Shown piece by piece: positions 2,936 to 37,810 of a stretch of 64,000 nt of DNA (position 1 is its first letter; the number at the start of each line of letters is the position of its first letter). The notes beneath the pieces were generated by a model. It was not told the DNA's origin and did no database searches. It saw nothing but the letters and a program-made list of their open reading frames with translations. The position numbers and the translations under genes were made by a program. Source of the DNA: Porphyridium purpureum (taxonomy: Eukaryota > Rhodophyta > Bangiophyceae > Porphyridiales > Porphyridiaceae); contig VRMN01000013.1 of assembly GCA_008690995.1 (NCBI GenBank), forward strand, positions 1-64,000. Direction: 5' to 3'.

Positions 2936-2999
2936 TAAAACATCTTGGACGAAATCTAGGTCTACTTCACATTAAAATGTATGCTCATATCGGATCATT

Positions 3000-4034
3000 T
3001 CACTCGATCGAATGCGAGTCGTTGTCCAGCATTGCCATATCTTCAGCCAAAGTATCCGCCTCTTTATACGATTCCGCTGCTGCATTCCATTCGTCCCTGC
3101 ACTGGTCGTGGGCAAGCGTGAACGCTTCAAAGCTTCCGGATGAAGGTACAAGAACACAATCCTGGATTATCTTTTTCAATGCAATGTTCGACCTGCTGTA
3201 GCGCGTGCTCGGCGCGAGCTCTGCACGGATGACCTGGAGTATGCGGTGCTTGAATCCGATGAAACTCTTATTATGCTCCTCGGCCAATTCGAAATACTTG
3301 CTGGCAAGCTCCGTTCGGAGCTTGCGATTCATCTGACCGATCCTCATCGAGGTCTCTTCCCCCGTATGCCGCATTCTTGACCATGTCGTTGTTCTGCGCG
3401 AAATGAGTCCATCCGGTTCGAAGAGAATTCGAAGCTTGATCAGTTCATCCGATATCGTGCGCACTTGTCCGTAGTCAGCGTATTCGGACATAGCGTCAAT
3501 ATCAGGATCTCTCATACGTTGCTGAAAACCATTGTTGCTCAGATCCTTGGGCTCGACGAGGATCTGCCACGAATGCAAGAAATGTGGCGTCGGATTCAAC
3601 CACATCAATACTTCTGGCACATTTGCATATATCGCAGCCGTACAAGAATCCGTATGCATCGTCCTAGTGATTGAATCAATGTATCCGGGTGAGAGCCATA
3701 CGCGCGGTGGCATTTCCCATGGTCTTGCCGACGTTCGACGGCGACGCGAACCCACCTTGTATTCGTCTTCGTCATCTTCCACCGGATTCTCAGCACGACG
3801 AAATAGATCCCATGTAAATTCGACAATCGCTGGAACTGCACGAACGAAGTATTCGATGATATCATTCATTGCCGGATCATGCTTTTCGTAGTCCTTGAAT
3901 ACATATCGGCTCTGAAACTGGTCCACGATCTGCCGCGTGATACGAATTTGAGCTGCAAAGTAATGCCATGCGATGTGATAGCGTGCGACCCACAGTCGTG
4001 CATGAAGTTCGCTGAATCGATTATACTGGTCCAT
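3000..4034 (-). CDS. Element 1 orphan protein, 344 aa
   Basis: The ATG at 4034 starts directly downstream of the 865-aa gene's stop, with 24 bases between them, so the two minus-strand genes may be co-transcribed. The protein is largely helical by composition. An acidic DDEDEY run followed by RRRRTSARP lies near residues 85-105, possibly a nuclear signal. A decayed relative occurs in element 2 (29,985-36,623, +), with matching blocks VP-x2-LM / P-x-PHF-x3-W, then R-x-IS with LR and RR, then MN-x-x-(V/L). No catalytic motif was recognised. Conservation in both elements, next to the coiled-coil gene and convergent with it, argues for an element function rather than a captured host gene. Confidence 0.7.
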   Translation of the reverse strand: MDQYNRFSELHARLWVARYHIAWHYFAAQIRITRQIVDQFQSRYVFKDYEKHDPAMNDIIEYFVRAVPAIVEFTWDLFRRAENPVEDDEDEYKVGSRRRRTSARPWEMPPRVWLSPGYIDSITRTMHTDSCTAAIYANVPEVLMWLNPTPHFLHSWQILVEPKDLSNNGFQQRMRDPDIDAMSEYADYGQVRTISDELIKLRILFEPDGLISRRTTTWSRMRHTGEETSMRIGQMNRKLRTELASKYFELAEEHNKSFIGFKHRILQVIRAELAPSTRYSRSNIALKKIIQDCVLVPSSGSFEAFTLAHDQCRDEWNAAAESYKEADTLAEDMAMLDNDSHSIE

Positions 4035-4058
4035 TCGAAAGCTCCTTCCGTGTTTATC

Positions 4059-6656
4059 CTAATCAGCGTGATGGCGCGTTACATCGAATACAGGCCATTG
4101 CCTCCTCCATTCAATCACACTTTCTACTCGCACCTGGAACGACGGCCAGTAGGCACAGATCTCATGGAATGCAGTAATCGTATGCACGCTCGATAGGTAC
4201 GAACCACTCGGATAACCATTCATTGTATCCATTTCTGGCGAGAAGCTCGTGGAGGTATCCGAATATTTTCTGAGCACCTGGTCATACGCGAAAACATCAA
4301 TTTCCTTTGTTTCAGCGAGCAACATTCGCCGCGTCACTTGATTCCGACCGAATCCAACCCTGGCATCCATCGACCGTTTGTAATACGCATGTTCATATGC
4401 TGCTTCGATGCATCGTTGTTCTTGATCACCCCCCATCGTTTTCTTCCGGCACAACAAGAATCGATGTGCGTATCGGATGCCACGCAGCACATCCTGAAGA
4501 GGATGAACCGGAAGGCGCTCCACAGTGCCAATCGGATTCGTATACACATCTTCGTAAGAGAAATCATCGCATGAACATCCGTATCGAGAATCACATTTGT
4601 TTCCCATCGAAGCCGTATGCGTGTATCGACATGGTCTGTATGCCATACAGGCAAGCGCGCCTTGGACTGCGCAAGTCACCGCATACCATTCGTTGGCTAG
4701 AGATTCAAAGTGACCTAAGGCATCAAATCCACGTCGCATCTCCGCTGGTTGCATTAATTCCGTATTATCCATCGGATGTGCAAATCGGAGCCTTGCGTAC
4801 GCATTATTCATATTCAAGGCATTGATACGGATTAGATCCCAGAGCATTGCTGTATCTCTCAGCATCCATGAAAACATGCCGCTATCCGCTATCGTGAAGC
4901 CGGTTGGGTCTGATGGATGATTCATCACCCGAATAATATAATCCTCGGATGCAAACTTTCGTCCTCGGTAACCCGTCGTCTTCTTCGTCGCCAGGTGGGG
5001 TACCTCCTGAATGAGGTACGCACCGATATCCGCGTGCAGGAATTGACAGTCATCCGAAGTAAACGCGAATTCATCCGTAAAGTATTCGTCTACTGTGTAG
5101 TTGCTGAACAGCAGCGCATTCGGAAGCTCTGCACCGTTATAGTCTTCGCGTGGAGAGTCTTCGCACGGAGTGACTTCGAAAAATTCGAGCCCGGTCAGAC
5201 CGTCGGTGAAGTTCTGATGCGGATCTTTGTTCTCGAACGACCATGCCGTAAGCATTCGCATGTAGAAGTCGACGTTCAGAATCACATCCAAAAGATGCAG
5301 ACCCACCTTGTCATTTTCCTTGGCCTCTATGTGAATGGCCTTATACGTATTCTCACTTGCATCCTTGTACATCGCACTGAATCGATCTATGATGTCGTAA
5401 TGCGAAAAGCCTCGTCTGATGGACTTAGGTTGCTGCATCGGATGACTGCTTCGACCGAGAGTGCACGTATCTGTCCGTGCACGCTTCGGATCCTGACGTG
5501 AAGCAAATATCCCAGGCACATTTCGGATATCACTTCGAATTTCTCCTCGGATATAGCTAGGTCCCGGATCGTCTTCGCGGCTGTATGAAGCCGTGTCATA
5601 CTTGACATTCCCATATCCGCGGGGAATCTGTCCCGGGCGCGGGAGCGAACTGCTTCCTCGCCTTTCGAATGGCGCACGGTACGTTCCGGATCCAGAACCA
5701 CTTGGCATATCGATTCTACCATACCCAGGCGGGCCTCGTAGCGTTTTCTGGGTATTCGGATTCAGCGCAGCGGCCCCAAGTCGCAGCGAACTCGCCGAAT
5801 TACTACGGATGAGTCCACCACGAATGCGACGGCTGCGCTCATCAGCATCCGATGCTTCACTACTTTCGATCGAATCTGACATTCGTCGTTTCCCTTTGTC
5901 AACAGTCGAGACCCTTTTCGATCGCCGAGTATTCGGATTTACGTCAGACTCAGCATGCTGTCCTGAAGGTGCGTTCGAATCACGCAAATTCGTTTCAGGC
6001 GTTCTCTTGACACGCATATCCGTATCCATTTTCGCAGCGTCCAACGAATCTCCGGATGCATATTTCTCTGCACCAGCACCTGCTGCAGGTAGTCCGGTAT
6101 CCGCTGGAACGTGTCCGCGCAATGCTCTTGCCGACACACTCTGCGAATCCGACGACACAGAAACCGCGCGAATCGGAGATCGACGGCCAACACTGGACAT
6201 GGGTGTGGTCGACTTCTTCGCAGTATCCGAAGCCTTTCCCACGATATCGGACGGTTTCGCACCGACGTCCTTCACTGGATCCTCCTTCGGATTTGCACCG
6301 ACGTCCTTCACTAGATCCTCCTTCGGATTCGTCTCCGCGTCCGCGCATTTCGCACCAATCGGATCACCTACTGCAACCGTCTCAGCTGAAGCCGTAGCTG
6401 GCGCGGACTCCGACGGCATTTTTTCCACATCCCTCTCAACTTCATCATTCGGATGACCTCTGACGGCTGCCTTCAGTTTCGACGATGCTCCACGCACTGC
6501 CGAACCCTGACCCGCACCGGACGCACGCCCAGGCTCCACCTTTTTCGTCGCCGCCGGATTCGTCGCTTTACCCCCCTTGCCCTGCGCACTTCCGGATACC
6601 ACTTTCCTTCCTTTCGACGGATTCGGATCCGCCACTTTCTTCCCGGTGTTCTCCAT
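4059..6656 (-). CDS. Element 1 orphan protein, about 865 aa, disordered N-terminus and Cys-containing C-terminal domain
   Basis: The frame is open from a GTG at 6680; the first ATG is at 6656 and is preferred. Residues 1 to about 420 are low-complexity and rich in Ser, Pro, Lys, Arg, Asp and Gly, with a short tandem repeat of NPKED-x-VKDVGA type near residues 110-140. This part is probably disordered and nuclear. Residues from about 430 to the end look folded, with many aromatic residues and a Cys cluster (MGNKCDSRYGCSCDD) near residue 700 that could bind metal. No homologue was found in element 2, where this slot is empty. It is divergent from the transposase gene, so the two may share a 430-bp promoter region. 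Function unknown. Confidence 0.7.
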   Translation of the reverse strand: MENTGKKVADPNPSKGRKVVSGSAQGKGGKATNPAATKKVEPGRASGAGQGSAVRGASSKLKAAVRGHPNDEVERDVEKMPSESAPATASAETVAVGDPIGAKCADAETNPKEDLVKDVGANPKEDPVKDVGAKPSDIVGKASDTAKKSTTPMSSVGRRSPIRAVSVSSDSQSVSARALRGHVPADTGLPAAGAGAEKYASGDSLDAAKMDTDMRVKRTPETNLRDSNAPSGQHAESDVNPNTRRSKRVSTVDKGKRRMSDSIESSEASDADERSRRIRGGLIRSNSASSLRLGAAALNPNTQKTLRGPPGYGRIDMPSGSGSGTYRAPFERRGSSSLPRPGQIPRGYGNVKYDTASYSREDDPGPSYIRGEIRSDIRNVPGIFASRQDPKRARTDTCTLGRSSHPMQQPKSIRRGFSHYDIIDRFSAMYKDASENTYKAIHIEAKENDKVGLHLLDVILNVDFYMRMLTAWSFENKDPHQNFTDGLTGLEFFEVTPCEDSPREDYNGAELPNALLFSNYTVDEYFTDEFAFTSDDCQFLHADIGAYLIQEVPHLATKKTTGYRGRKFASEDYIIRVMNHPSDPTGFTIADSGMFSWMLRDTAMLWDLIRINALNMNNAYARLRFAHPMDNTELMQPAEMRRGFDALGHFESLANEWYAVTCAVQGALACMAYRPCRYTHTASMGNKCDSRYGCSCDDFSYEDVYTNPIGTVERLPVHPLQDVLRGIRYAHRFLLCRKKTMGGDQEQRCIEAAYEHAYYKRSMDARVGFGRNQVTRRMLLAETKEIDVFAYDQVLRKYSDTSTSFSPEMDTMNGYPSGSYLSSVHTITAFHEICAYWPSFQVRVESVIEWRRQWPVFDVTRHHAD

Positions 6657-7087
6657 CTCGTCCCGCTCACCACCACTCACGCACCCGCACTGTCCACCGC
6701 GCTACCGCCCTCTCCGCCTTGTCCGCCTTCCCAGCGCTTCCCACCTTCGCACAACCCACCTTCTCCGGATCACACCAACTTCCCCACACGATCTGCTCTT
6801 CGCCCCACGGCCACTGCGGCCTGCGCGTTTGACTTGTATCGAATTTGATGGACCCAAATGAAAAAAATGGCAGAATTGAATGGCATGTGGGGTTTTGTCG
6901 GGAAAATTACGCATTCACAGAGAGAAAGCTTTACATTAACTACCTCTTTGGCTTGCCGTGGTACAAACGCTACGCCTGCGTCCAGGAAAGACACGCGCAT
7001 CGGATGGACGGAAGGCTTTGGAGGCGGAACGGATACAGCGTGACGTGCGCGAAAACATACGGATAGGAAGACTTCCCCAAACCGCGA
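6657..7087. other. Bidirectional intergenic region between the 865-aa gene and the transposase
   Basis: About 430 bases separate two genes that start in opposite directions. It is C-rich at 6,660-6,780, with the motif ATCCG/CGGAT interspersed. It probably carries both promoters; no clear TATA box was seen. Confidence 0.35.
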
Positions 7088-10000
7088 ATGGACAGACAGC
7101 AAGGCCTCGAGAGCAACGCTTGGCATCGACGTAGAAACAAACGTATCCGATGCGATGGGACCCGATGCGACTTCACCGTACCAGAGGATGAGGGATTGAC
7201 TTACTCCACGCGACTTCACATGATGCAGTCACACAAGCGCAAGTGTAAACTTCGCATGCATCCGAATCGACTCCCGTATACGCAGGCCTACTTATTTGAT
7301 GCGGACGACGGTAGTTTGCAGAGGGAGGACAGTCCGGATGATACGGGAAGCGCAAATACAGAAACGCGGACTGGACGAGGCAGTGAGCTTCCTGATATCC
7401 GGATGGATGACGAGGACCCGGAAATGCAATTTCATTCGGATCGTGACATTGACAGCGGTTGCGAGAGCTTGCATGCAAACCTGACACAGGATGCGGAAAT
7501 GTATCTAAGACCGATGGAGCCGGTGCGTGGCGGAGAAGAAGGAGAAGAGCAAGTCGAATATATCTTAGGTCCGTATGCCAAGCACTTTAATGCGTTATTA
7601 AACCAAAAGACTTTACGAGAGCGCTTGCAAGATCGTGACGACGAGATGTCAAAATTCGTACGGAGTCTGACAGGCGCGGGTGAAATGGAAGATGTTGATC
7701 TGGATGAAGCAATCGAGATGATACGATTTAAAAACGACCAGGAAGTATTCATCCAGAAGCATGGGATATCCGTACGTCATGCCACGGACTTAAAGTCGAT
7801 TGAAGCCAAACTCTTACGAATTGCTATCCGTATGACTCTGCGCCAAGTAAGCCAGCTGACAAAACACTCATTTACCATGTTGAAAAGGTATCCGTTAAAC
7901 CACGAGGCGTCTCGAATCGACGCTGTATACGCTGCATTACAAAGCAAATTGAACATAGCTTCCTCTCACGTGCTGAAACGAGCAACAAAACTTCTTTTCA
8001 CATTCAGATCTTCGAAGCGGATGTCTTCGCTTCTTGGCAATCCGAGTATTAAACCTGTTGAGACGTACGTCGAGTATGGTCGCGGAATCCGACTGAGACG
8101 AAACACCCTACGCCGGAACGTGAAGCAAACGATCCGATTTCGTGAACCGATGGACATCGTCATGCGTTCAGCTGCAGCTATTATTGATGAATACGGATTG
8201 GAGCCATTCGTTATCGACTTATTCAAAACCCGGGATCGCGAAATAGTGATGCATCCGCAGGATGGAAACCTCTGCATCAGCGCAGCCCGTCGGATAGAAT
8301 TTGAAGTGAATCGAAAACATGGACCGGATCCACCTCAGGTTGTAATTCTTCCAATACAGATATTTGCGGATGAGTCCCATATGACCCAGAATGGACGACA
8401 CACAGTGACGCCACTGAAGATACGAATAGTACATCGAAGGCTGTTTGATACACACTCTTCCCGTATTCCTCAAGTCGTCGCATACTTACCACCTGTGGAT
8501 ACCCGAAGTATTGCACGAGCATTTGGTGAGGAAACAAGTATCCGCATTGATCCGAAGCTAGCCAAAAGAGAGCTCGAATCGTCCATGTACCATGCAATTA
8601 TGAAAAAGGCATTCCACCATCTCATGATCGCGAATAAATTCGGAGTGCCAGTCCTGTGGAATCATCGCCGCTTGCTTCTTTTTCCTATTGCATACAAGTT
8701 GTCAATGGACATGCCGATGATCTCAAAATGCTCATTTACGAAAGCTTCTTTTGTATCCGGATCCCGTGCTCGAACCATGCCATGCCATCAATGCATGGTG
8801 ATAGCGCCAGAGGCCACAACTCGAGCAGTCGAAGCAGGACCAAATTCGGATGCATCCAAGGCAGAAGAGTTCTGGATTACGCGTATTCCTCTGCAATATC
8901 GCTGTGAGAAGCAGGTTGAACCTTTCATCACGCAGAATTTATCTGCATGGGGCACGCTACAGAGAAAAGAACAATCTCTCCACTTTCTCGGTGACTCAGC
9001 GGCTATCGGATGGAATCGATTTGATGATGACGATGACGTTGCATTCAATGCAACGATATCCGCATTCAAACACAAAATACATCTGCGCAACCGCGGGAGA
9101 TTTCAACTGACAGGCATAGATGGCTTGCACGGATTCCTTGCATTTTGGCTTCGAGGTATCACAATCGCTGGTCTCAAAGCATTGCTGAGCAAACCGAATA
9201 CTGTACACGAGGTAGGCCTCGTCGCTGAGAGACTCACGGAAGCGCAGCAGCGAGCTACGCGACACTTGAACGAAGTAGAACATTCGGATTTTCCACGCAT
9301 GTGGGCTTCACTCGATTTCGATGAACAAAGACATGGAAGTGCATCCGAAGATACCAGTGGCGATGATTCAGAGTCGCATGACGAATACTCTTCGGATGAT
9401 GACATTGTCCGCGCGAATGAAAGAAATTCGTCACAAACGAATACACGTCAAAGACCAAAGGCCAAAGCAAAGACGAACGACTCTCACATCAATCCGAGGA
9501 GGGCAGAGTCCGACAGAAAGGGCAGCGTATCTGACCAACTTCGAGGTATCATCGACTCAGCAGCAGGTAAAGCTTGGAACCAAATTGCGACGGAGATAAC
9601 GGATGAGGCGAGGTTCCGGCGACCAGCGACATACTCTCCGATACGATTATCTTCGTTTTTATCCGACTTAACCAAATTCGCAGAACAATCATATTCGCTG
9701 GGCTTTCTACTTCAAATGATTGTTCTTGTACACCAGGAGCATTTACTCTCGGATCGTACACGTGAAAGCTTTACCGAACTTGCAACCAGATGTATCCGAC
9801 TGTATGGCGTACTATACAAAGAAAAGCTGCGTCGACCATGGCTTGAACTCATCCCAAGGCTCACATCCGACTTGCAATCCCGACTCGATTCATACAAGCG
9901 GCAGATCAATCTACGTTGGAATGCTCCGAAAATACATGCACTGTCTCACTTCGGGGACAACTTGACGGATCTGGGACCGATAAAGTTTTGGGATACTACG

Positions 10001-10954
10001 GATGGAGAGAAATCGTTTCAAATCGACAAGGCGTGGTTCAAATCACTGGTCAGCGCAGATACGAATATCCCACATAATGTCATGCTGCAGCGCGCAGAGG
10101 TGTTCGAAATCGGATCTTCTTCTTCGTACTGGTTTGATAAGCTTGCAAGGAACAAGGATTCGAATGCAATTGCATACACACACGAACAAGTATCCGATGA
10201 AGCATACACACATACACGAGAATCGGATGCCGCTCGAGCGTGGTACCGGCACCGCTCGTCTTCTGTGAACTGTTCATCGATCCTTTTCGGAATCTGGCAG
10301 AACGCGTGCACTACTCTGAGGTACAGCAGCGAATCCGGATTCGAGGCTGCCCCTTCATGGCGACCAACATCGTGGAACCCTTCTATATCATTCGAATCCG
10401 CTGATGACGAAGAAACGAACATGCTCTGGTTGCACACGGATACGGCTTTGAAGACGTATGCATCCGAGAAACTCCAAACGGCTGTGAATGATGGTACTGC
10501 AACCTTCCAAGCTTTCAGACAAGTTCAACTGAAAAAGCCTCGCGACGAAGCCGAATGCATTGTTGCACATCCGAATCACTATCGTTCTCCGAGATGGGAC
10601 ATTCTCGAATACGCACTACAAACTGGTCACCCTGAACGCCACGGATATGGAAAATGCATCCTAATTGTCCGGATCAAATTACAGGGACCTTACGACGAAT
10701 CCTTTGACGTGGTGGTGATACAAGATTTAGAGGCGCACGATGGAGAAATCGAAAAGTCAGAGTGCAAATGCAAATGCAAGCGCCTAGATCCGGTGTTTCA
10801 TCATTACCGACTCAGTAATAATTCGGTAAAAGTATTGGACACAGAAACGATAACCGGGCGAGTGACAGCATTCAAGGATATCCGCATGAAGGACAGCCGA
10901 TGGTACTACCTTTTAAACCCAAGCACATTCGAAGGCGTACTAGAATACAATTAA
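7088..10954 (+). CDS. CMC/Plavaka-like transposase, 1288 aa, apparently intact
   Basis: ATG at 7088. Near the N-terminus is a C-x4-C-x-(14-16)-H-x-(4-6)-C type pattern, a likely zinc finger, also present in the element 2 copy. The core has blocks shared with element 2: FADE(S/A)HMT-x-NGRH, then KLSMDMPMI with MPC-x-QCMV, then DGLHGFLAFWLRG, then FAE-x2-YSLGFLLQMI, then WNAPKIHAL-x-HF and KFWDTTDGEK. The Asp of FADE, a later Asp (DMPM or DGLH) and the Glu of DGEK are candidate DDE residues. The arrangement, with a C-x2-C knuckle and a late helical region, resembles Plavaka and other CMC transposases. The superfamily assignment is by motif resemblance, not by search. The conserved C-terminal block ends in NPS-x-FE-x-VL-x-YN in both copies. 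No disabling change was seen. Confidence 0.75.
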   Translation: MDRQQGLESNAWHRRRNKRIRCDGTRCDFTVPEDEGLTYSTRLHMMQSHKRKCKLRMHPNRLPYTQAYLFDADDGSLQREDSPDDTGSANTETRTGRGSELPDIRMDDEDPEMQFHSDRDIDSGCESLHANLTQDAEMYLRPMEPVRGGEEGEEQVEYILGPYAKHFNALLNQKTLRERLQDRDDEMSKFVRSLTGAGEMEDVDLDEAIEMIRFKNDQEVFIQKHGISVRHATDLKSIEAKLLRIAIRMTLRQVSQLTKHSFTMLKRYPLNHEASRIDAVYAALQSKLNIASSHVLKRATKLLFTFRSSKRMSSLLGNPSIKPVETYVEYGRGIRLRRNTLRRNVKQTIRFREPMDIVMRSAAAIIDEYGLEPFVIDLFKTRDREIVMHPQDGNLCISAARRIEFEVNRKHGPDPPQVVILPIQIFADESHMTQNGRHTVTPLKIRIVHRRLFDTHSSRIPQVVAYLPPVDTRSIARAFGEETSIRIDPKLAKRELESSMYHAIMKKAFHHLMIANKFGVPVLWNHRRLLLFPIAYKLSMDMPMISKCSFTKASFVSGSRARTMPCHQCMVIAPEATTRAVEAGPNSDASKAEEFWITRIPLQYRCEKQVEPFITQNLSAWGTLQRKEQSLHFLGDSAAIGWNRFDDDDDVAFNATISAFKHKIHLRNRGRFQLTGIDGLHGFLAFWLRGITIAGLKALLSKPNTVHEVGLVAERLTEAQQRATRHLNEVEHSDFPRMWASLDFDEQRHGSASEDTSGDDSESHDEYSSDDDIVRANERNSSQTNTRQRPKAKAKTNDSHINPRRAESDRKGSVSDQLRGIIDSAAGKAWNQIATEITDEARFRRPATYSPIRLSSFLSDLTKFAEQSYSLGFLLQMIVLVHQEHLLSDRTRESFTELATRCIRLYGVLYKEKLRRPWLELIPRLTSDLQSRLDSYKRQINLRWNAPKIHALSHFGDNLTDLGPIKFWDTTDGEKSFQIDKAWFKSLVSADTNIPHNVMLQRAEVFEIGSSSSYWFDKLARNKDSNAIAYTHEQVSDEAYTHTRESDAARAWYRHRSSSVNCSSILFGIWQNACTTLRYSSESGFEAAPSWRPTSWNPSISFESADDEETNMLWLHTDTALKTYASEKLQTAVNDGTATFQAFRQVQLKKPRDEAECIVAHPNHYRSPRWDILEYALQTGHPERHGYGKCILIVRIKLQGPYDESFDVVVIQDLEAHDGEIEKSECKCKCKRLDPVFHHYRLSNNSVKVLDTETITGRVTAFKDIRMKDSRWYYLLNPSTFEGVLEYN

Positions 10955-11040
10955 AAGACAAAGTCCGATGAAGTCTCATCTTCTCATGATTGAAATTATT
11001 CGCTACCACCCATCTCGCAAACTTTAAAGTTGCAGACAGT
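10955..11040. other. Right end of element 1 / junction with the next repeat cluster
   Basis: A short non-coding stretch after the transposase stop. The last motif-like sequence is near 10,970. The exact element end and target duplication could not be defined. Confidence 0.3.
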
Positions 11041-25593: not shown

Positions 25594-26130
25594 GTGGTAG
25601 TAGTATCATTGACAATAGTGGTACTGTGAGTTACTGTGGCGGTTCTGTGTGGGAGGTGCCTAGGTACAGCGTTTTGCAGGAGACTTCTTAGTCTGTTCTG
25701 GGGAGACCTTCCTTACACCACTGTACTTAACGATGGTACTGTGGCTGTACGGCGGTTGTACAGCGTATTGCTGGAGACTTGTCAGTCTGACCTGAGGAGA
25801 CCTACCGTACACACACGTAAGGTCTTGCGACGGGAGGAGAAACATGTGTTGGAGCGGGAGTAGGAGGCTGTTGCTCGACAAAAGAATGGAGAGAATAGTA
25901 TCTCATGTATGAATGTATCTTTGGATTCCCGCAAAGATTTTGGCGAGAGCTTTCTGAACAGTTTAGTGATTTACGCTATATCGGCTTCTGTTGTTTTGTC
26001 GACGGTACGAACCGGTCTGGCCGCACGGAGTATTACGCATTTAGCATGCGCTGTATACACGGCAGAAGATAGGACGTGGATTGCAGATTCCATTTTGTCG
26101 AAGCGAAGTCCTAACGTGCGTGTGTGGTCC
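25594..26130. other. Junction between LINE 5' side and element 2
   Basis: Contains the duplicated GTAC-rich segment (listed separately) and, from about 25,880, the terminal region of element 2. The first GGANTCC motif is at about 25,922. Open frames here are antisense to the transposase or small. Confidence 0.4.
25632..25826 (+). repeat. Imperfect tandem duplication of about 105 bases
   Basis: Two units start near 25,632 and 25,736. Each contains TTGTACAGCG or GGTACAGCG, then TGGAGACTT or AGGAGACTT, GTCTG, and GGAGACCT, ending in TTACAC or GTACAC. It is probably part of the LINE leader, since similar GGAGACC and GTACA words occur in the LINE 5' coding part near 25,310-25,375, in the opposite sense. 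Confidence 0.55.
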
Positions 26131-29100
26131 TTAGTTGTACGTCAAAACATCTTCGAACAGAGACGGATTCACGATGAAGTACCAGTTGCGCGAAGAATTT
26201 GTGGAATCCAAGAACGCAGTGATTTTTCCTGTAACATCTTGTGCATGGACCACGGACACAACGTCGGGAGTCCATTCCGTATGCACAAACACTGGCTTGA
26301 GTGTCTAGCATTGACTTGCACATGTCTGACCGCATACATCGTCCGCAAATCGCTGTATTACCAAAGCACTGATCGTCTTTGTATGGATTCCAGACGTCAA
26401 GACAATTTTGGCTATGAGGATACACTTCCCGTACGCAAATTCCGTGAGGTCTGTCGTTGGATTCCTGATTTCCACCAAGTCCCATCTTGGACAGCCGTAG
26501 TGGTTCGGATATGCTACGATAGTCTCCACGGGAAGGGAGTCCCGCGCTTATTTGTCTGTATGCGTATATTTCCACGCTAAAGGAGTTCGCGTCCATCCTG
26601 TTCAGCATCACGAATCGACGGAGTTCTTCGTCCACGTTATGCCACAATACTTCGTTTGGGTTGGATGTACCCACCGGCGTTTCAGCTGGATTCCAGTCTA
26701 CTGGCATCCATGAGACATCAGGCTGTGTCTGCGTGCTTCCGCATACATCAAACCGAGTGTGCGCACCCGGCCATTTTCCATACGCTTGCAGATTATCGTT
26801 GTTGTTTGTGCCGCCGAACCTGCGCCATACTTGTGTTCCATGTTTTGTGGATTCCCAAAGTTCAGAGAAAGGTTCCACACTGCTTGTTGAAATTTGGTCG
26901 CAACGTTCCGTATACATGTAATCCAGTTGTGTTTCTTCATCCTGCTGAACGCGTCGCATCATTCTTGAGATAAGATCTCTATGGTTCCACACGCCGGTGG
27001 ACTTAAAGTGTTCCTTAATTTTCTTGAATGCTTTCTCGCCGTCAGTGGTATCCCAAAATTTCAGGGGTCCGCAGTCTGCAATGGATTCCGCAAAGTGGGT
27101 GAGGGCATGGATTTTTGGTGCATTCCATGGGAGTCCAACGACCTTCTTAAACAAATGAAGGCTTTTCTGGAGCTCGCGCGCGTGAGTTGCAACCTTTGCA
27201 ATGTCTTCGCTTTGAAATCCTTCACGATACAGGAGAGTGTATGTTTGGATAGCCTTGCAGCCAAGATGGACATATGCCTCGCGAGAAGCGGGCGACAAAA
27301 TGGACTCCTGGGAAACGACCATGATCATCTGTAAAAGGAATCCGAGTGAGTATGTATGCTCTGCGAATTTGGTGAGTTCTTGCAGAAACGGTGACTGACG
27401 CATAGGTGTATATACAGCGTGTCGACGATGGAGTCCCTCCGCGAATATTACCCTCGCGATCACTTTCCACTTTTTACCGGCCCCGGAGTCAATGATGGCG
27501 CGCAACTGGTCCGCGCTGCTGCCCTTCCGTTGCGATACTGCGAGTTCGCGGGGCGGGCCAACCACTTCGGCATCTGGGTCGTCGCCTGATCTACCAGCTG
27601 CCCCTTTGCGCTTCTTTGTTTGCCTTGTTGCACATAGATTCCAATTATCTTTTGAAGGTAAATGGCTTGCAGACATGTTTCCATCGCTTCCATGCACATT
27701 ATCTGTGTCCGAATTCTCATCGTCTGTATCAAGTGTCCACAAGAGAGAAGATTCTGGATTCTTTGGAGCACGTTTCTTGGTCTGAAGCGTTGTGAGGCGT
27801 TGCATGATCTTCTTAACTTCCGTTTGTGTGTCTGGGCGTGTCAGCAACGCCTTGGGTGCTGCTGCGCAAACGCCTCGCAACCAGAAAGCAAGGAATCCAT
27901 GGAGTCCGTCAACGCCGCAGATCTGAAAGCGCCCGCGGGGGTCGAAGCGATTCCATCCCTCTGCAACTGGGCGTCCGATAAAGTGGAGACTTTCAGCGCT
28001 TCTTTTGGACTCCCCAACTGCGCCGAAATGATTCTTCACAACGTTGAGACTTTCAAGCTCGTTTCGATACACAACCGGTTTGGTCGTAACCCAGAAATCA
28101 TGGATTCTATCCTGGTTGTCATCAGGTGGGTCAATATCAACCGTCGGGCTTCCGACCATACATTGTTGACATGGCATCTTCTGCCCTCGAGTCCCGGAAA
28201 TCATTGGAAGTTTCGTGAAAGACATTTTTGCAATCATTGGCATATCCATCGACAGCTTGTAAAACATGGGTACGAGCAGAAGCTTCGTATCCCCCAGGTT
28301 GACGGGGATTCCCAATACGTTTGCTTTCAGTACATGCCGGAATACCTCGTGCTGGATTCTATGCCACAATGCAGAGTTTAACTCATTCTTCAGGTTCTTA
28401 TCGTCTAGAGACGGATGGGTCTGCCCAACCACCTTCTGCACGGATTCCCTGCTTACGTTAGGAAGGAAAGTGACCACCGTAGGGTCTCGTACAGAGTCCT
28501 TGCCGAACATTTCCCTGTGCATGACACGGATCTGCAGTGGAGTTAAGGCGTGTCGTCCGTTTTTGGTCATGTGCGCTTCATCTGCAAAGACTTGAATTGG
28601 AAGAAGTACAGCTTTTGGCGCGTCTTGGATACCATACCTCGTCTCAATTTCTGCTCGAATTTTTCGACCTGCGTTCCTTACAAGGTGTCCGTCCTGCGCG
28701 CACACTATTTTGTCAGATGTAGCACCGCTGGATACATCTACGTGGAATGTCCGCAGTCCGTGACGCTGTATGATGATGGCAGCGGATCTTACTATAATCT
28801 CAAGCGGTTCACGATATTGCACCTGCTCTTGGATTCCATTCTCAAGTTGGATTCCGCAAATATTTCGCCCCTGTGCGAAGGTCACATTCGTCGTGCGTGT
28901 TTGTGTGCGCTTGTTCCCTATCGCCTTGGACATCTTTTCCCGTGTTCTTGGATTCCACTGAAGCTTCGCAGCGAGCTGCATTTCGCGATCGAGCATTTTG
29001 GGAATCCGCGCCCTCAACGCGTCGCGTATTCTACAAATGGAATTATCCTGCAATGCCTCACGTCGAAGCTCTTCACCGACAACGCTGGTAACTCTACCTA

Positions 29101-29875
29101 GCGCCCTCCGTAAACATATTCGTAATAGCTTGGATTCCAGCTTCTTCAGTTTCCCCGCTGTTCGACTTGTGATGCCACAACCACTCATCACAGAATTCTG
29201 TGTACATTTAAATCGAAGCATCTCTATGGAATCCTCAACGGCTTGTGTATCACTCGATGAACTCTCACTGAAAGCACAAGCGAGCGCTGTGAGCGGATCT
29301 TTGGGATTTCGTAGGCGAGTGCGGAGCGATTTCGTTGACATCGTAAACTCCCAAATATCCTGACACTCTTTGCTGACTGCCTTAAAGCTGGATTCCGCGA
29401 CATCTTCGTCCAAATCGGTTTCGAACGGATCCTTGCGTGCAACGTCCAGCTCTGTGTCCAATCCATCTTCGACCGAATCTGGCGCGTGCCCGACATTTGT
29501 GGAGTCCCTGTTGCCACCACTGTCGTAACCGTAAATAGACTCTTCCCCATCGTCCATGGAATCCTCATCGCTGTTGATGTCGAAGTAGTCTTCATGCTCT
29601 CCATTGATGCGCTCCTGGACATTGAGCTCGTTGTGACCGCTGTCATGCGTACATGCGTACGCCGGCTTCGCGATTTGAGTGGATTCCGCAATCACACGAG
29701 CCGATGCTTTGCGGGCCTCTACCATCTCTGGAGTCGGATAAAAACAGAATTTTTTGTGGATTCGCATTTCAGCATGCACAAGCTTTTGCGTCTTCCACCG
29801 CGTATCCTTGATGCGAAACCCGCATCCTTCGTTGACGCACGGGTGCATGTCACCGAACTCGAATCTTGTCGCCAT
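26131..29875 (-). pseudogene. CMC/Plavaka-like transposase of element 2, frameshifted near its C-terminus
   Basis: The ATG at 29,875 (MATRFEFGD) is chosen because the zinc-finger-like N-terminus (C-x4-C and H-x-(4-6)-C) aligns with element 1 from there; the frame is open further upstream but resembles nothing. All core blocks of the element 1 transposase are present: FADEAHMTKNGRH, KLSMDMPMIAK, MPCQQCMV, DGLHGFLAFWLRG, AGK-x-WK, FAEHTYSLGFLLQMI and KFWDTTDGEK. Near 26,530 the homologous sense leaves this frame: the matching PNHYGCPRWDLVEI...YGKCILI block is in a neighbouring frame, which also has one TAG near 26,300 and ends at TAA 26,131-26,133 after VNPSLFEDVLTYN. So there are one frameshift and one stop, all near the C-terminus. 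Confidence 0.75.
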
Positions 29876-30568
29876 GCTTTTTCCTTTCGCCCTCCAACAA
29901 GTATACTCGCGAGCGCACACGTTCACGCACTCTTGCAGACAAAATTTTAGGCCATGTACCGCGTCGCGGGATTCTAAATACTGACGGTTTAAGGTTGCGG
30001 GACTCCACCATCCGGATGATCCAGTCAGTGGGATTTTTCGCGACGTCCCACAGCTCCTGATGTTGCGCTCACCAAGCCCGCATTTTTCGGCCGAATGGAC
30101 AGTGGTCGACTGGATTCCCGTAGATTCGAACGAGCCAACGCATGGCGTATCGCTGCGGACACACAGGTTTGAGTGCGCTGATGTGCGCACCGGTGAAGGC
30201 GACGCAAGAGACATGCGATACATCAGTCTCGCCCGAGAGAGCTTGCGTCTCGCTCGGCGTCCCGAATCGCATCTCCTCAGACGAATGAATGAGCTGAGTT
30301 GGGTGCCAGCTCGCTGGATTGGGAGTCCACTGTGGTTGAACATGAACCACGCTGTGAGTGACTTATACAAGGCCTACCTGGAGGAATCGGAATGCTGAGA
30401 TAAGGATATCACTGAGCGAGTGGACTCCATCCGACCGATAGAGTGGAAGGCAGTGAGACAAATCAGGACTCCCTTGGTCGTAAAGGGTTGACATGGCATT
30501 GATGATTCCAGACATGTCCGGGACCTCGAGGCGCGGTTTGTGCAGTGGATTTTGAGCATTGAGATGTT

Positions 30569-30790
30569 TGTCAATTATTCGTGTGAATAATTGACCAAGT
30601 ACAGGTGTAGCTGTACCAAGTTACTTTGAGGGTTACCCGAACCCTCAATTTCTTGACCAGCGTATAAATACGCGGCGAACGGCGGCGGGAAAGTAGCACT
30701 AGAACAAAAATAAAAGGTTAAGGGTGTATGAAAAAAGAACAAACCTTCCGCCCCGTGGGATAGCCTGACGGGGGATAGAGATGAACGACA
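30569..30790 (+). repeat. Left LTR of Copia 2
   Basis: 222 bp, starting TGTC and ending GACA. A near-terminal hairpin has an 11-bp stem (GTCAATTATTC / GAATAATTGAC, loop GTGT), a second short stem is GAGGGTT / AACCCTC, and a TATA box TATAAATA lies at about 30,663-30,670. Confidence 0.92.
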
Positions 30791-33700
30791 GTGATCACTC
30801 GGGATCTCTCCAGTGTTAGAAGTGTGGTGTCTGACTTAAGATGACTCGTCGGGGTGCTAACGTCGCGGCGGGTGCGAGTGGCGAACGTGAGAGAGAAGTG
30901 TCTCCCGCTGGAGAAGGGATCGATGCGGGACATATGACGCAAATCAGTCGCGACGAAGGCTCCACGGAGTCCAGCGACCAGTTCGATCCCTCTCTTCTAA
31001 TTAGCATGGATCTTGGTAGTTTTTCTACCGAAAAGAGGCTGGCGATTGAGGACTTACGGGACTTCGTCGTCATGTTCCGAACCTACAGCGGTGTGGCCTT
31101 GATGGTGCAGATGACTCGCCGTCTTCCTCGTTCCAGTATCCTGGATTGTGGCCTCTTTGCACGCGAACAGTTTGCTTCATTTCTGACAGCAGCACAAGTA
31201 CCAGGTTTTCGTCTATCTGACCCCGGTGTACCCACGATTGATCGTTTTCGCCGGATTTATGAAGACAGCAATGATTCCCGATCTTCTGCGACGGTGCTAG
31301 ATGCGAACGGACGTACTCCGCAACGGGGAGCCGCACCTGTGACGGATACTTGGCAGCAAGACTCTGGCCGATTGCAAGCAAGTACCGTAGGTCATAGTTC
31401 TCAGCCCGTGGTGCCACCAATCGTTTCTGTGCCCGGCAACGAATATGGTCTTGCAAGAAACTCATCCACAGTTTCGAAAATGATTAGATCGGAGGACATT
31501 TTTTACATGGACGAATACAAGGATAAGATATCATATTACCGGTGGAAACAAGAAGCCCTTCTTACGTTTGCGCGAGCTGAAGTCACCGAACACCACCGTG
31601 CTCCGATCCTCGGCATGATGCTGGGCGGAACGATCAAGATGTTTTATACCGACAAAGTCCAGTACAATAAGAGCCTGAACGATGCTTTCGAATTACTTGA
31701 TTCCAAAGTTTTTACCGGGGAATTTCATGAACAGATGGTTGATTTATTTGACGGGGTGAAGTTCCGCCACATTGCGAATCGCATGCGTAATAGCGGCAAC
31801 AAAGGGATTTTACATGTACTGTACCATGATACTCTGAAGTACGCGCAAGGCTGCTTACCGACGGAATATCATGGCGAACGCCGCCTCCTCCGGGCTCTGC
31901 GCAATGCAGTAAGAGATGAAAGTTTCGCATCTGCAGTCCTGCTGAAGGATTTCAACACTGCCGATGACCTATACGCTCATCTGGTGGGATGCATCAATAT
32001 ACAGTCGCGGATTGTACGACCGTCTTTGCCTGCATCCCAGCCACGCGCCCAACATCAGTTGTTCACCAGAGATTTACGTCATCAAGTGTCTTCCTCCTCT
32101 GCCGCTGGATCGCACGCGAAGAAATCCAGTGCGCCGTTTTGCCGCAATTGCAGCTCTCCTGAGCACCTTGCCATGCAGTATCCAGAACCGCCCAAATGTC
32201 ATAATTGTGGCTCTACAAGTCATTTCATTACACAGTGCTCGGAGACATTGAATCAAAAATTGCAACGAGCGCCTGTTCGAAATATTCGCGCGCTTCTCTT
32301 CAGTAATGAGGATATGCAAGCGTCCGATATTGATCCAGTGTTGGAAAGGGTTGAGTCGTTTGAAGAACACAATGCTTCAGGACACGACAACAGCATAGAG
32401 GACGAACTATTTTATTCCGCTGTCAACGACATGCATATTAAGTATGAACATCTGCAAAGTATCGCGTCAGCAACTCGCTCGTCAGGAGCCATCGGGCTTG
32501 CGCTACTTTCGCAACGTATGATTTCAGACTTCTGGGGTGTATGCGTTGATACCGGAGCAAGCTCCAACTTTTGCTCACTACCACAGTGGCAAGCGTTTTG
32601 CGCATTATCGAACAGCCCGTCTTCGCTGCGTCCAGTCACAACGCGCTCCGTCGGTCTCGATATCGGCATATTTCGGATCATCGGAACTGGAGAGTTTCGT
32701 CTTCCGGTCTCGTCTGATGTGTTTTTGACCGTGGATGTGGACGTTCTTGATACTTCCAAAGCAGAAGATCCTCAGTGGCCTCCACTGGTCTTGGGACTGT
32801 TGACCATGGATCATCACTCATGCTTTCCGAACAATTTGACCGACGCGTTGGTGTTTCCAACGCTTCAGATTGAGATACCTCTTATCCGCAAATTTGGAAA
32901 ACTTTTCATCGACCCTGCCATTTTCGCTCGAGCGTCTCCGCTGTTGACGTACGCGGAGCTGCGAGAAATTCACAGAAAGTTCAATCACGCGAGCAGCGAA
33001 CGCATTCAGAGAATATTTGATATCGCCGACCAACCTTTGTCCGAAGACGAGTTCAGTATTCTAGCAAGACTATCGCGCCAATGTCACATCTGCCAGCGAT
33101 TCTCGAAAGCACCCGCGACGTTTCGCCTGTCCGCCAATGTCGAAGTCAATTTCAATCATACTGTGCAGCTCGATACATTCTACCTGCCGCACACCCAAGG
33201 CGAACGACCTATGCCCGTGATGCATATCGTATGCGAAGGCACCCGTTTTATGTCTGGTCAATGGTTGAAGCACGACTCTACATCGGGTGCTTTATTCGAG
33301 ATTTTCTTCCTGTGCTGGATTTCCGCGTACAATGGCGCACCACACATCGTCAAAGTCGACGCAGGATCCGCTTACGCAAGCCGAGAATTTCAGGCCCTTG
33401 CAAATGTGCACGGTATTCACGTCGACGTACAGCCTATCGAAGGGCATCAATCGATCGGACGAGTGGAACGCGCGCATGGTATAGTCGGTATTATGTACGA
33501 GAAAATGATACTTGAAGATCCAGACGCAGACGCAGATGAAACGCTTGCACACTGCTTCTTCGTCGCAAACTCATCCTGTGGGCTTTCGGGAATCCCACCA
33601 TGCCTTATGGTGTTTGGCTCGATGCCTCGGATGGTAATCAGTTCGATTCAAGATGTTCCCTCTCAAGCCGCGCGGATCAATGCCCTTGTTCTCGCACGTC

Positions 33701-36101
33701 GTGTGTACGAAGAATTCATCGCGAAACAGTACTTAAACATCGCGCTGAGCCGTCGCCACGCAGCGCTCGGTTCCGAAATGCAAGACACCGGTCCTCCTGT
33801 GCCTGGCGACCTAGTAATAATCGCCCGGGAAAGAAACCGCAGACGGAATTATGATGGGCCCTATCTGTGCGTCGCTGTTGATGGCCATAAGGTCTCAGTT
33901 CGAATGCCGCCCACCGGTGCCGTCCGGATTTTTCATGTTGCATGTGTACGCAAATATCGGATCGAACCCGCTGCTGAGCTGCTAACGCAGCCCATATCTG
34001 CCCGCGAATATCGCTTGAATCCAGACCTGCAACTTCGCTTCAAGAGTTCTGATGAGGAGGAGCTTTCCTGGCTTTACAACCAGGGAGCTTTTATTATTGC
34101 AGAACGTGTACCCACCAACGCCGTCATCGTCCCTGCAAAAATGGTTCGTGTTCTCAAAAACTACCGTACTGCTCACGAGACCACAAAATCACGCTTGGTC
34201 GCACTCGGACATGTGGACGCTCAGAAACGCTCTCTTATTGTCGAGTCTCCGATGCTGTCGCAGTGGGCACTCAAAGTTATTGTGTCCACCACAGTTCAAT
34301 TCGGCTGGACAATTCATACTCAGGATGCGAAAAAAGCCTACTTGCAAGCAACGAAATCATTGCAGCGCCCCGTATATATTGTCTTGCGTAGCGTCTTGTG
34401 CAATCTATTCTGCAACGCGGTCAACATTCCGCCCCGTGACATCTTGTACCTGCTCGTCGTCAAACCGCTCTACGGCCTATCCGAATCCGGCATGTATTGG
34501 TGGTTTTCCGTCCAGCACGCATTATCAACACTGTCGCTTGTTCCGACACCAATGGATCCGTGTTTCTTTATTCAGGCTTCAGATGGCCTGGTAGGCGTCC
34601 TATCGGACAATATCATTTACGCTGGAACGCGCTCATTTCTCGGCTCCTTGCAGCAAAAACTCGCAGAATTTATTATGTCACCAGCTGAAACGCCTCCGCT
34701 CGAATACAATGGCGTACGCCTTGAGCAGAATTTGCGCATGCACCAAACTGAATACCTACAAACGCTGCGCCGCTCCGCATTGGAAGCGCTTACGCCTGAG
34801 CAATTTTGGGACGCATTCGTTGGCTTGGTCAAACTCGCCCAGATTTACTACCTCTTTCGCCATCGGCGCTCGATCTAGCGGATACCGCGAAACGTGTTGG
34901 CAAATACCTCGCTGAAACCAAACGTTGGTATCTGCCGTACGACCGCCTTGATGCGGATTTCCGCGTTCATGCGTACAGTGATGCAAGCTTCGCAACCGAT
35001 GGCACCCGGTCGCGCCTGGCTTTCTGCATTTTCCTGGTGGACGGTGTGCACCGTGCTCATCTTCTTCATGCAAGGAGCTATTTATCTCCGCGGGTTGTAC
35101 GCAGTGTCCTTGCCGCCGAGCTGTATGCCGCAAGTGACTGTTTGGATTTCTGTCTAGCCCTGCAGCCCACGCTGTGCTCCGTGCATGTACGTGATGTGCC
35201 GATCACTTTATTCACCGACAGCCAAAGCATTTTTGATACGGTGCACAAGGCCAAGGTTTTCACTGAGAAACGGCTGATGGTTGATGTCGTGCAGCTGCGA
35301 GAGGCGATCGCCACGGGCGAGCTACAAGACCTCGCTCACCTTCGAGCTTCCTCAAACATCGCAGATAGCCTTACGAAGTTTGATACTCGCCGTCTAATGT
35401 GGCACCAGTACTTCATGACGGGAAAGCTTGACCACGATGTACACATGGCAACCCAGCGGTATTCTCCGGAACTGTAATGTTGACCTGTAACCTGCCTGGT
35501 CGGTGAAAGGCCTTGAGTTTCATATCACATTCGACCAGTATACTATACACATGTGTGCAACAATATCTCGGCCTACCGCTTCCCAATCGCGTCCTCGTTT
35601 TCGTCGGCACAACTGCCGCACTGTGTACTATGCGTCACCAGAGCGTCAAGTCATTCCTGCGCGTTGTCTTTGCGTCAGAGCTCGATGCAAATTTACAAGG
35701 CCATTCAAGTTCAGCAAGTTCCTTCGCTCAGTGTGGCGAATTATTGCGCGCCATCGATCATTCAAGCTATCAACAACATATTGGTGCTCCCACAAGCTTG
35801 CGCCTGACTCGTTTTCTCTCGTCATTTCATCTGCCAAGTCTCGACATGTCGTTTTGCCCGTTTCGGTACCGTACAATGACCAAATGCCGCCCATTTTTTG
35901 CGAGGGCGCCGGTCAATTGGTTTTTTTTACAATCTCCAGTCCGCATTTCGCACGCTGTTTTTCGTGCTCCGTGCCTGCTTGAATGTCCCGTCGACTTCCT
36001 CCTCTTCGCTCGCGCACGTGTTTTCACACTCGCTCTGTGATTCAGCATTGCATTCTGGAGTATGTCATTCGTGTGCCATCCCAGAAAGAAAAATAAGGGA
36101 A

Positions 36102-36323
36102 TGTCAATTATTCGTGTGAATAATTGACCAAGTACAGGTGTAGCTATACCAAGTTACTTTGAGGGTTACCCGAACCCTCAATTTCTTGACCAGCGTATAA
36201 ATACGCGGCGAACGGCGGCGGGAAAGTAGCACTAGAACAAAAATAAAAGGTTAAGGGTGTATGGAAAAAGAACAAACCTTCCGCCCCGTGGGATAGCCTG
36301 ACGGGGAATAGAGATGAACGACA
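36102..36323 (+). repeat. Right LTR of Copia 2
   Basis: Matches the left LTR with about three differences and is followed by the target duplication ATGTT at 36,324-36,328. The same hairpin and TATA box are present. Confidence 0.92.
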
Positions 36324-36608
36324 ATGTTCACGCGCCGGGTCACGATTCTAGACTGGCGGCGTGCGATTGAAATGAACGTAGCGCGGTGGAACAGGCAGGT
36401 GAGTATGAACAAAGTCGCCGAGCCGAGTGGGTTGTACGACGTGTATCTCGAAGATTCCCGGCTGGCTGGCGCTGTGCGAACGCAGAGGAAGTCGGGAATT
36501 GAAGAAATTGACCAGGAACAGTGGAGGACTCCAGTCTCACCAAAAAAACTTAATAATGAAAGACATCGTGTTGATCTCTTTGATCTCGTCAACGTCGACG
36601 GATCCAGA

Positions 36609-37694
36609 TTACTGCAGTATTAATTGTGTGTTGATGACGTTGTGTGCCACGAGGCAGTCTGCGGCAAACTGTCCCGCCTTCCCACGAGAAGCACGTACCT
36701 TTCGGACTCCATGACAGAACTCCGAACAAGGGCCTCGTCCAAATCGAGCACAACTGGAACCCCATACCTTTTCGTAACACTCAAACGCGCCACGAACCTC
36801 GGCCTTTGGAATCCAAGAATAGTTTGACCACGGATACAATGGATTAGCTTCAACATTCCAACACACTAAAAGATAGGACTCCATCTTTGCCCATACACGG
36901 GTCACGACAACATCAGCTACCGACTCAACCGATGAGACATTCATTGGCACACACTTCAGGCGCTGAATTACATGCCCAATGCTTGCATTCTGAGAGACTG
37001 TTTTCCTGTCGAAGATGGGATGGGCTAGCAGAATATCATTTGGAATCCCCACGTCTAATGCATTAACTCTCTCGATACGGCATGGCCAGAAGTTCTTGGA
37101 GTCCCAGTCAACGATGACAATCCAGGATGCGCGGTGCCATTCTTTTTCTTCCACACTTTTCCTCTTGACGCAATTGAAGGTACAATCATAGGAATCCAAA
37201 TACAGATCCAAGCCACTTTGGGCGTTGGCCAACGACTGACGTACCCAAGCGATTTCCCGGATACCTTTATTCCCGAGTTCCTTTGGCAAATGTACAGCTG
37301 GACCAACTCTGGGCTTAGCCAACTCACTGAGCTCGCCGAACTGGGTCCCGCGCACTTCCACTAATTGCACCAAACGTTGCAGACTCGACTCCATGTCTCC
37401 GACAACGACCCCCAATTGCGTGATCTCGGCCTGTAGCTGAGCCATGCGGTTCTCGGCATACATAGACTGCAAGGCGTACTCCTGCCTATTGGAATCCCTA
37501 TCACGCCTGGCCAACTCTGCGGTATTCTGTGCCAGAACTGCAGAGTTCAACAAGGATGCGACCCGTGCCCGCAAGACCTTATTCTCGTCTTCAGCGGAGA
37601 CCGCTGGGGACTCCGTCGACCCGCCGGACGAGACTTCGGGACTCCCTATACCGCCCTGCCCGCGGACAACATTGCGTCCTTCTCCCGGTTCCAT
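36609..37694 (-). CDS. Coiled-coil element protein of element 2, 361 aa (homologue of the gene at 1,979)
   Basis: The frame is open from a GTG at 37,760; the first ATG is at 37,694 (MEPGEGRNV) and is preferred. Residues from about 40 to 125 form a predicted coiled coil with AQNTAEL and EYALQSM, as in element 1. The C-terminal domain has SYLLVCWNV, PWSNYSW, R-G-AFECYE and a Cys/His tail ending DC-x4-H. It looks intact, unlike the other genes of element 2, although it contains about ten GGANTCC motifs. The tail-to-tail overlap with the broken 344-aa homologue mirrors the 64-base gap in element 1. Function unknown; an accessory or site-binding role is inferred. Confidence 0.7.
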   Translation of the reverse strand: MEPGEGRNVVRGQGGIGSPEVSSGGSTESPAVSAEDENKVLRARVASLLNSAVLAQNTAELARRDRDSNRQEYALQSMYAENRMAQLQAEITQLGVVVGDMESSLQRLVQLVEVRGTQFGELSELAKPRVGPAVHLPKELGNKGIREIAWVRQSLANAQSGLDLYLDSYDCTFNCVKRKSVEEKEWHRASWIVIVDWDSKNFWPCRIERVNALDVGIPNDILLAHPIFDRKTVSQNASIGHVIQRLKCVPMNVSSVESVADVVVTRVWAKMESYLLVCWNVEANPLYPWSNYSWIPKAEVRGAFECYEKVWGSSCARFGRGPCSEFCHGVRKVRASRGKAGQFAADCLVAHNVINTQLILQ

Positions 37695-37810
37695 CTTGAC
37701 TTTGTGTGTAGCTTCACGTACATCACGTACGTGCGCGCACCAGCCCGCAGTTCGGTCCACTCATACAACGCTAAGCCAAAACCGATTGAGACTTTATCTT
37801 TTGGAGAGTA

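Follow-up and report, generated by a model that had tools for sequence, protein, structure and literature searches.

Two related transposons of the red alga Porphyridium purpureum, each rich in a short palindrome of its own

Why should a transposon carry the same short palindrome dozens of times, and mostly inside its genes? The question is raised by a stretch of 64,000 nucleotides from the red alga Porphyridium purpureum (GenBank assembly GCA_008690995.1, contig VRMN01000013.1, positions 1 to 64,000), here called the window, which contains two related multi-gene transposons, referred to as element 1 and element 2. The original prediction, made from the letters alone, held that element 2 is saturated with GGANTCC, its genes included, and took this density to suggest selection for sites that are bound by a protein or modified. 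We found that the saturation is real and that selection for a DNA-level site, beyond the constraint on the protein, is strongly supported in element 2. Moreover, another palindrome, ATNCGNAT, saturates the homologous element 1, and each word is confined to one element within the window. The relevant features of element 2 are the following.

25923..37645, no strand: element 2, given as the span of its 43 GGANTCC sites, interrupted by a Copia element; outer termini not defined
26111..29875 (-): transposase reading, its ATG chosen by comparison with element 1; the open reading frame (ORF) opens further up, at 30,370 (TTG)
29744..29839 (-): C-x4-C-x21-H-x3-C, a putative zinc finger near the N-terminus of the transposase (alignment A1)
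36609..37760 (-): protein P0006 of 383 amino acids (aa), with a predicted coiled coil near the N-terminus and, towards the C-terminus, a conserved part rich in W and C; 9 GGANTCC
30009..30392 (+): weak match to the 344-aa ORF of element 1 (25% over 132 aa, E 4e-5), without a long open frame
30569..36334 (+): Copia long terminal repeat (LTR) retrotransposon inside element 2, 233-bp repeats 97% alike; 2 GGANTCC

GGANTCC in element 2 and its genes

The window contains 58 copies of GGANTCC, 43 of which lie in element 2 (25,923-30,466 and 36,526-37,639, the first starting at 25,923 and the last at 37,639), 2 in the nested Copia (at 30,966 and 33,589 only) and 13 in the remainder. The tallies given earlier (18 in 28.0-30.5 kb, 10 in 36.5-37.65 kb and 2 in the Copia) proved exact, and a further 15 copies were recovered at 25,923-27,901, beyond the ranges that had been tallied. 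First-order Markov simulation of element 2 (6,133 bases) gave a mean of 1.48 copies and a maximum of 6 in 500 runs, which puts the observed number ~29-fold above expectation, in agreement with the former estimate of about thirty times chance. Expressed as copies per kb, the density is 7.0 in element 2, whereas element 1 (3 copies in 11,000 bases) has 0.27 and the 35.9 kb of background (10 copies) has 0.28. The nested Copia, which serves as an internal control, is at background level, and no other part of the window is equally dense, the nearest being three sites within 58-59 kb. In a scan of element 2 for palindromes with arms of 3 or 4 bases and gaps of 0 to 8, GGA-N-TCC was by far the most enriched. 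One-mismatch variants occur at 6.7 per kb in element 2, 5.7 per kb in element 1 and 3.9 per kb in the background and are thus hardly raised in element 2, which makes GGANTCC a strict word.

The genes themselves were analyzed by shuffling codons with the protein sequence and the codon usage fixed (2000 shuffles per gene). The long transposase ORF contains 30 copies, where the shuffles gave a mean of 6.7 and a maximum of 15, and the 383-aa ORF contains 9, where the mean was 2.3 and the maximum 7; not one of the 2000 shuffles reached the observed number for either gene. The copies in the long transposase ORF use all three codon phases (12/5/13), as had been noted before in more general terms. This ORF includes probable non-protein codons, upstream of 29,875 and past a frame change near 26,530, and the tests on element 2 were repeated on the part that stays in one frame (26,534-29,875). 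The conclusions hold, with 23 copies against a shuffle mean of 4.9 and a maximum of 11 (0/2000). Resampling of the codons from seven background genes led to the same picture: 4.5 and 1.5 copies were expected in the transposase and the 383-aa ORF, respectively, and 27 and 9 were observed (0/1000), the 27 being the number within the whole span 26111..29875.

A second line of evidence is provided by the places where the protein sequence would permit the word synonymously. In the one-frame transposase 23 of the 37 permitted places are filled and in the 383-aa protein 9 of 13, together 32/50, whereas 13 control coding sequences fill 10/144 (6/105 in an initial nine and 4/39 in four more). When the transposase reading from 29,875 is taken in full, 27 of 42 places are filled, or 36/55 with the 383-aa protein included; compared to the 6/105 of the nine control coding sequences this yields a Fisher p of 6.5e-16. 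The number of permissive positions is itself high, being 37 in the one-frame transposase and 13.3 +/- 3.3 (maximum 25) in 500 shuffled versions of the protein, and amino acids thus also seem to have been recruited to make room for GGANTCC. The codons that bear the motif are as often identical to the element 1 transposase as the other codons are (23/69 versus 347/1009, Fisher p 0.90, gap columns omitted). The earlier claim of selection at the DNA level is therefore borne out by the shuffles, the occupancy, the conservation and the background level of the Copia.

It is highly improbable that no selection is involved and that the pattern was produced by a bias in codons or amino acids, by tandem expansion in the past or by a mutation bias of the region. 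The codon use of element 2 is shifted towards the word, as is apparent from the number of copies that the shuffles still yield in the long transposase ORF, and a 36-bp tandem repeat within the 873-aa ORF of element 1 (6,252-6,331) includes the half-word CGGAT. Nevertheless, shuffles that keep both protein and codon use fall short in both genes of element 2, and chance, composition and codon use were rejected by the Markov simulation, the within-gene synonymous shuffles and the background-codon resampling alike. The bases around the sites are almost uninformative, apart from a slight tendency for the word to be preceded by T and followed by A. The sites were thus not duplicated as parts of longer units, and copying of a longer repeat was rejected as the source of GGANTCC on this basis. 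Finally, the background level of the Copia inside element 2 counts against a regional mutational process, which was likewise rejected.

The copy of element 2 appears somewhat decayed. The homology of its transposase to that of element 1 changes frame near 26,530 (it continues at 26,529-26,134) and a stop lies downstream, which makes the 3' end of the transposase look damaged, and the counterpart of the 344-aa gene, beside the Copia insertion, is apparently broken. That the words persist in a decayed element fits an element that was active not long ago.

A different word in the related element 1

Element 1 occupies the left end of the window and comprises five ORFs.

1..11030, no strand: element 1, with 47 ATNCGNAT from 105 to 10,880; left end beyond the window, right end estimated from the fall in word density
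7088..10954 (+): transposase P0001, 1288 aa; 17 ATNCGNAT, 2 GGANTCC
1979..2935 (+): protein P0005, 318 aa, homologous to P0006 of element 2; 5 ATNCGNAT
4059..6680 (-): 873-aa ORF P0002; 13 ATNCGNAT
3000..4034 (-): 344-aa ORF P0004; 2 ATNCGNAT
3..1424 (-): ORF P0003, 474 aa within the window, running off its edge, with a weak PHD-like stretch below the cut-off; 7 ATNCGNAT

The 873-, 344- and 474-aa ORFs matched no known family. The transposases of the two elements are 35% identical over 988 aligned residues and the 318-aa and 383-aa proteins 30% (E 5e-46). The 344-aa ORF and its weak match in element 2 both lie on the strand opposite the transposase, and the layouts thus agree in part.

Whereas 5.8 copies of ATNCGNAT were expected in element 1, 47 were found (4.3 per kb). 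The word was picked by scanning many patterns in the same data, and its enrichment is far beyond the yield of such a scan. Like GGANTCC it is a palindrome with six fixed bases. The cross counts are close to expectation, as GGANTCC occurs 3 times in element 1 (2.7 expected) and ATNCGNAT 3 times in element 2 (1.9 expected), and in the transposase alignment no aligned codons bear both words. The transposases and the coiled-coil proteins are homologous while the words differ, and this was counted in favour of an element-specific word. One-mismatch variants of ATNCGNAT are raised more strongly, to 13.4 per kb in element 1 as compared to 6.4 in element 2 and 3.9 in the background, and ATNCGNAT is in this sense the looser word. 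The half-word ATCCG, found 140 times in element 1 (both strands), shows a wider excess.

Codon shuffling gave results comparable to those for element 2 in three of the ORFs: 17 copies versus 5.7 in the transposase and 13 versus 5.5 in the 873-aa ORF (both 0/2000), and 7 versus 1.5 in the 474-aa ORF (1/2000). The half-word exceeds the shuffles in all five ORFs, as the observed number was reached in 1/1000 shuffles for the 318-aa ORF and in 0/1000 for the other four. Of the places where ATNCGNAT is permitted, 44 of 106 are filled in element 1 and 7 of 117 in ten control coding sequences (six with 7/89 and four with 0/28); the comparison of 44/106 with 7/89 yields a Fisher p of 7e-8.

The words are laid out in a similar way in the two elements. 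Most sites lie in spans counted as coding (36/43 in element 2 and 44/47 in element 1), and their spacing is more even than random, with coefficients of variation of 0.71 and 0.72; only 1.1% and 1.7% of 5000 random placements, respectively, were as even. The two element regions contain 4 and 11 short tandem arrays, most of them without the word, and the words are not tandem-repeat units. Two other sets of repeats were observed near the elements. Units of CAGTTTTTCG with a 12-bp spacing form three clusters at 11,035-11,298, between element 1 and a Copia-like pol region, and may be subterminal repeats of element 1 or the leader of the adjoining Copia-like element. Two 55-bp repeats, 84% alike and each opening with GTACAGCG, are located at 25,664-25,812, just outside the word-rich part of element 2.

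What may read the words

On balance we favour the reading that a dimeric DNA-binding protein, specific to each element and most likely encoded by it, binds the word and marks the element as a whole. Both words have dyad symmetry, which suggests a symmetric dimer that reads double-stranded DNA, and the presence in one genome of two homologous elements with different words suggests a reader that probably is element-encoded and diverged together with its element. Such a binder would coat the element along its length, and the density of the word would tell self from host DNA. Occupancy of the sites could protect an open state of the element from silencing by the host, confine transposition factors to the element to which they belong, or both, so that the benefit, judged by analogy, would be anti-silencing or self-recognition. 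As the specificity of the binder drifts, point substitutions would rewrite the words through the genes, by synonymous changes wherever these are available and by amino-acid replacements where the protein tolerates them, and related elements would end up with different words. Given that the words are dispersed through genes, the change must indeed have come by many point substitutions.

Two candidates for the reader can be named. The transposases share the motif C-x4-C-x21-H-x3-C (7,151-7,246 (+) in element 1), with identical spacing and invariant C178, C183, H205 and C209, and this C2HC motif, a putative zinc finger that matched no profile, is a candidate DNA reader. The 318/383-aa protein is a candidate binder as well, its predicted long initial helix resembling a coiled coil (predicted local distance difference test score, pLDDT, ~60-70 there and 49 overall). 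The structure predictions as a whole were too low in confidence for use (mean pLDDT 49.0 and 30.7).

The C2HC motif also bears on a narrower role, in which the words are bound by the transposase or a TNPA-type protein, are spread through the element for end synapsis, cis-preference or self-repression, and act in transposition only. The presence of the motif in both transposases, with its other residues differing, would suit such a role, and CACTA elements use short motifs that are bound by TNPA. Recognition of the ends, however, requires terminal sites only, and the zones just outside the word-rich parts contain the other repeats described above (11,035-11,298 and 25,664-25,812, which may or may not belong to the elements) and no word. 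We consider this role quite unlikely.

The words could also be recognised by a DNA methyltransferase of the element or of the host, and dense marking would then hide or label the element. Typical methyltransferase sites are short and palindromic and have six fixed bases, both words contain adenine and ATNCGNAT contains a CpG. On the other hand, no methyltransferase family was found among the six element proteins when searched against Pfam, nor in NCBIfam, although such a gene could lie outside the searched region, since element 1 runs off the window edge and the right end of element 2 is undefined. The earlier hint at adenine methylation, which was based on the core GANTC, has lost weight, as ATNCGNAT contains no GANTC and as those GANTC sites of element 2 that are not part of a GGANTCC are about as frequent as in the background: they occur 20 times in 4,257 nt and 3 times in 1,149 nt in the two genes, 14 times in 4,035 nt in the Copia and 28 times in 3,864 nt in the element 1 transposase (all by subtraction). 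GANTC as the working unit, as in CcrM-type systems, was rejected in the absence of any enrichment irrespective of the flanks. Taken together, modification sites seem an unlikely explanation.

Selection at the DNA level both inside and outside genes is equally compatible with a binder from the host, and the words may serve to capture abundant host DNA-binding proteins, such as chromatin openers, that differ between the elements. A shared host factor, however, predicts a shared word in related elements, whereas the homologous elements 1 and 2 differ completely, and GGANTCC is scarce elsewhere in the window, with 12 copies in 47.0 kb (element 1 included). Recruitment of a host factor is, in our opinion, improbable.

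Several observations weigh against the favoured element-encoded binder, or against selection on the words as the source of all that was counted. Freely evolving noncoding DNA should gather sites most easily, but it is not the denser part: element 2 has 7 sites in 1,178 noncoding and 36 in 4,917 coding bases (5.9 versus 7.3 per kb), part of this noncoding DNA being the broken gene, and element 1 has 3 in 1,125 and 44 in 9,903 (2.7 versus 4.4 per kb). The full word ATNCGNAT is not above the shuffles in the 344-aa ORF (2 versus 2.3, 1567/2000) and the 318-aa ORF (5 versus 3.6, 425/2000), and background-codon resampling matched the count in 723/1000 and 13/1000 cases, respectively. The element 1 transposase, which has no excess of GGANTCC, still shows 24 positions permissive for it versus 16.2 +/- 3.6 in the shuffled protein, so that part of the excess in element 2 may reflect shared ancestry. 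The codons of element 1 that carry its word are somewhat less conserved than the others, a difference that is not significant (10/44 versus 360/1034, p 0.11), and the Myb gene among the controls fills 3 of its 11 permitted GGANTCC positions. Furthermore, the evidence comes from one copy of each element, neither structure model is usable, and the DNA would show the same pattern if the sites were read by a modification enzyme or by a host factor.

A broader proposal can be made, which we put forward tentatively and rate somewhat below an even chance. The two elements may represent a lineage of transposons with several genes, where every family has a private palindrome, written through its entire length with the codons and even the amino acids of its genes adapted to it, and encodes its own coating protein, and where word and reader co-diverge as a self/non-self code within coding DNA.

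Neighbouring features and known systems

A Tc1/mariner-like element with a DDE_3 match (37,811-39,097, +) abuts the right side of element 2; a search at 38,900-39,400 gave no inverted repeat to match, and no terminal inverted repeat was found around element 2. On the other side, element 2 is adjoined by a GC-rich region (22,196-25,593, -) with an RVT_1 reverse transcriptase ORF and an overlapping upstream ORF, which looks like a non-LTR retrotransposon. A Gypsy element (39,238-44,679) and a Copia element (51,375-56,772) have end repeats of 265 and 300 bp, respectively, that are 100% identical, and both look like very recent insertions. Within the ORF of this Copia (51,584-55,933) three overlapping 83-nt copies with a 54-bp spacing form a coding minisatellite (55,090-55,280, -). 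The host-type ORFs in the window (HEAT, UBX and Myb) are long and uninterrupted; the Myb-domain gene (57,890-59,365, -) carries 3 GGANTCC, a number reached by 37/2000 codon shuffles and thus a small excess that possibly is due to chance. No Rfam families or tRNAs were found in the window.

Similarity searches yielded little. Neither transposase matched Pfam at the curated cut-off, the element 1 transposase had no match in NCBIfam, and there was no match to PDB sequences at E values up to 1. The coiled-coil pair gave a single match to PDB sequences (E 3.7), and P0006 gave two sub-threshold matches of a coiled-coil type in NCBIfam (E 0.0045 and 0.092), far below the cut-offs. A search with PADLOC returned no match. 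No relatives were found among viral contigs (queries: the transposases of both elements, their alignment and the coiled-coil alignment) or prokaryotic genome contigs (queries: the two alignments), which says little about algae as these collections are viral and prokaryotic.

Short words that run through coding DNA are also known from bacteria, where the DNA uptake sequences of Neisseria and Pasteurellaceae and the Chi sites occur about once per kb across whole genomes. The likeness lies in a short word that is tolerated by the proteins and that acts as a self-label or a recombination signal. Here, in contrast, the words mark individual transposons, with densities of 4.3 and 7.0 sites per kb, and a related element uses another word.

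With respect to the CACTA elements, the TNPA-bound motifs are subterminal, whereas here the word covers interior coding DNA. The transposases do resemble this group. In PMC12730594 the signature of EnSpm/CACTA, Plavaka, Transib and their allies is given as a C(2)C and an H(3-4)H that follow the second catalytic D and precede the last E, and EnSpm/CACTA is placed within CMC(T), with CA..TG termini and a target-site duplication of 2-5 bp. Both transposases show this signature, with invariant D709, C734/C737, H1088/H1092 (spacing H(3)H) and E1112 in A1 numbering, the catalytic residues being assigned by eye from two sequences. The five ORFs of element 1 are also reminiscent of the EnSpm families of 16-20 kb with 4-5 ORFs that are mentioned in PMC6431247 for the red alga Chondrus crispus. 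Neither such termini nor a target-site duplication could be found within the window. Considering the lack of a profile match, the elements are not filed as certain members of EnSpm/CACTA.

The closest parallel in function is that of the VANDAL elements of Arabidopsis and their VANC proteins, which had been suggested from element 2 and which gains strength from element 1 and its different word, not mentioned in the original prediction. According to PMC5735166 and PMC10398659, VANC is element-encoded and binds motifs that differ between related VANDAL families, in a density-dependent manner, whereupon silencing marks and DNA methylation are lost. The former also describes the motifs as mainly noncoding, in one orientation and often in tandem repeats, whose turnover explains the rapid change. 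Both systems consist of related DNA transposons that each carry many copies of their own short motif at an element-specific density. The words of elements 1 and 2 differ in being palindromic, dispersed, rather even and mostly within genes, where they bend codons and probably amino acids, and since they are dispersed in genes the turnover of tandem repeats, proposed for the VANC targets, cannot explain how they changed. In addition, the transposase signature belongs to another superfamily; no Pfam match to a Mutator-like transposase or a VANC-type family was found among the element ORFs, no direct comparison with VANC having been made. GGANTCC was not found in the literature searched, and nothing relevant on transposons with binding motifs through coding DNA emerged besides the VANC work. 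By analogy, elements 1 and 2 would work like VANDAL/VANC without being filed as members.

The words look like an address label by which the element, or its protein, recognises its own DNA. As private words, they would offer an alignment-free way to find and classify family members, and the joint change of a DNA-binding protein and dozens of dispersed sites would become directly testable. If the binder is element-encoded, they would constitute a further case of sequence-specific self-marking by transposons, next to VANDAL/VANC, with a transposase that is not of the VANC-carrying Mutator kind and in a form in which the sites are imposed on protein-coding DNA.

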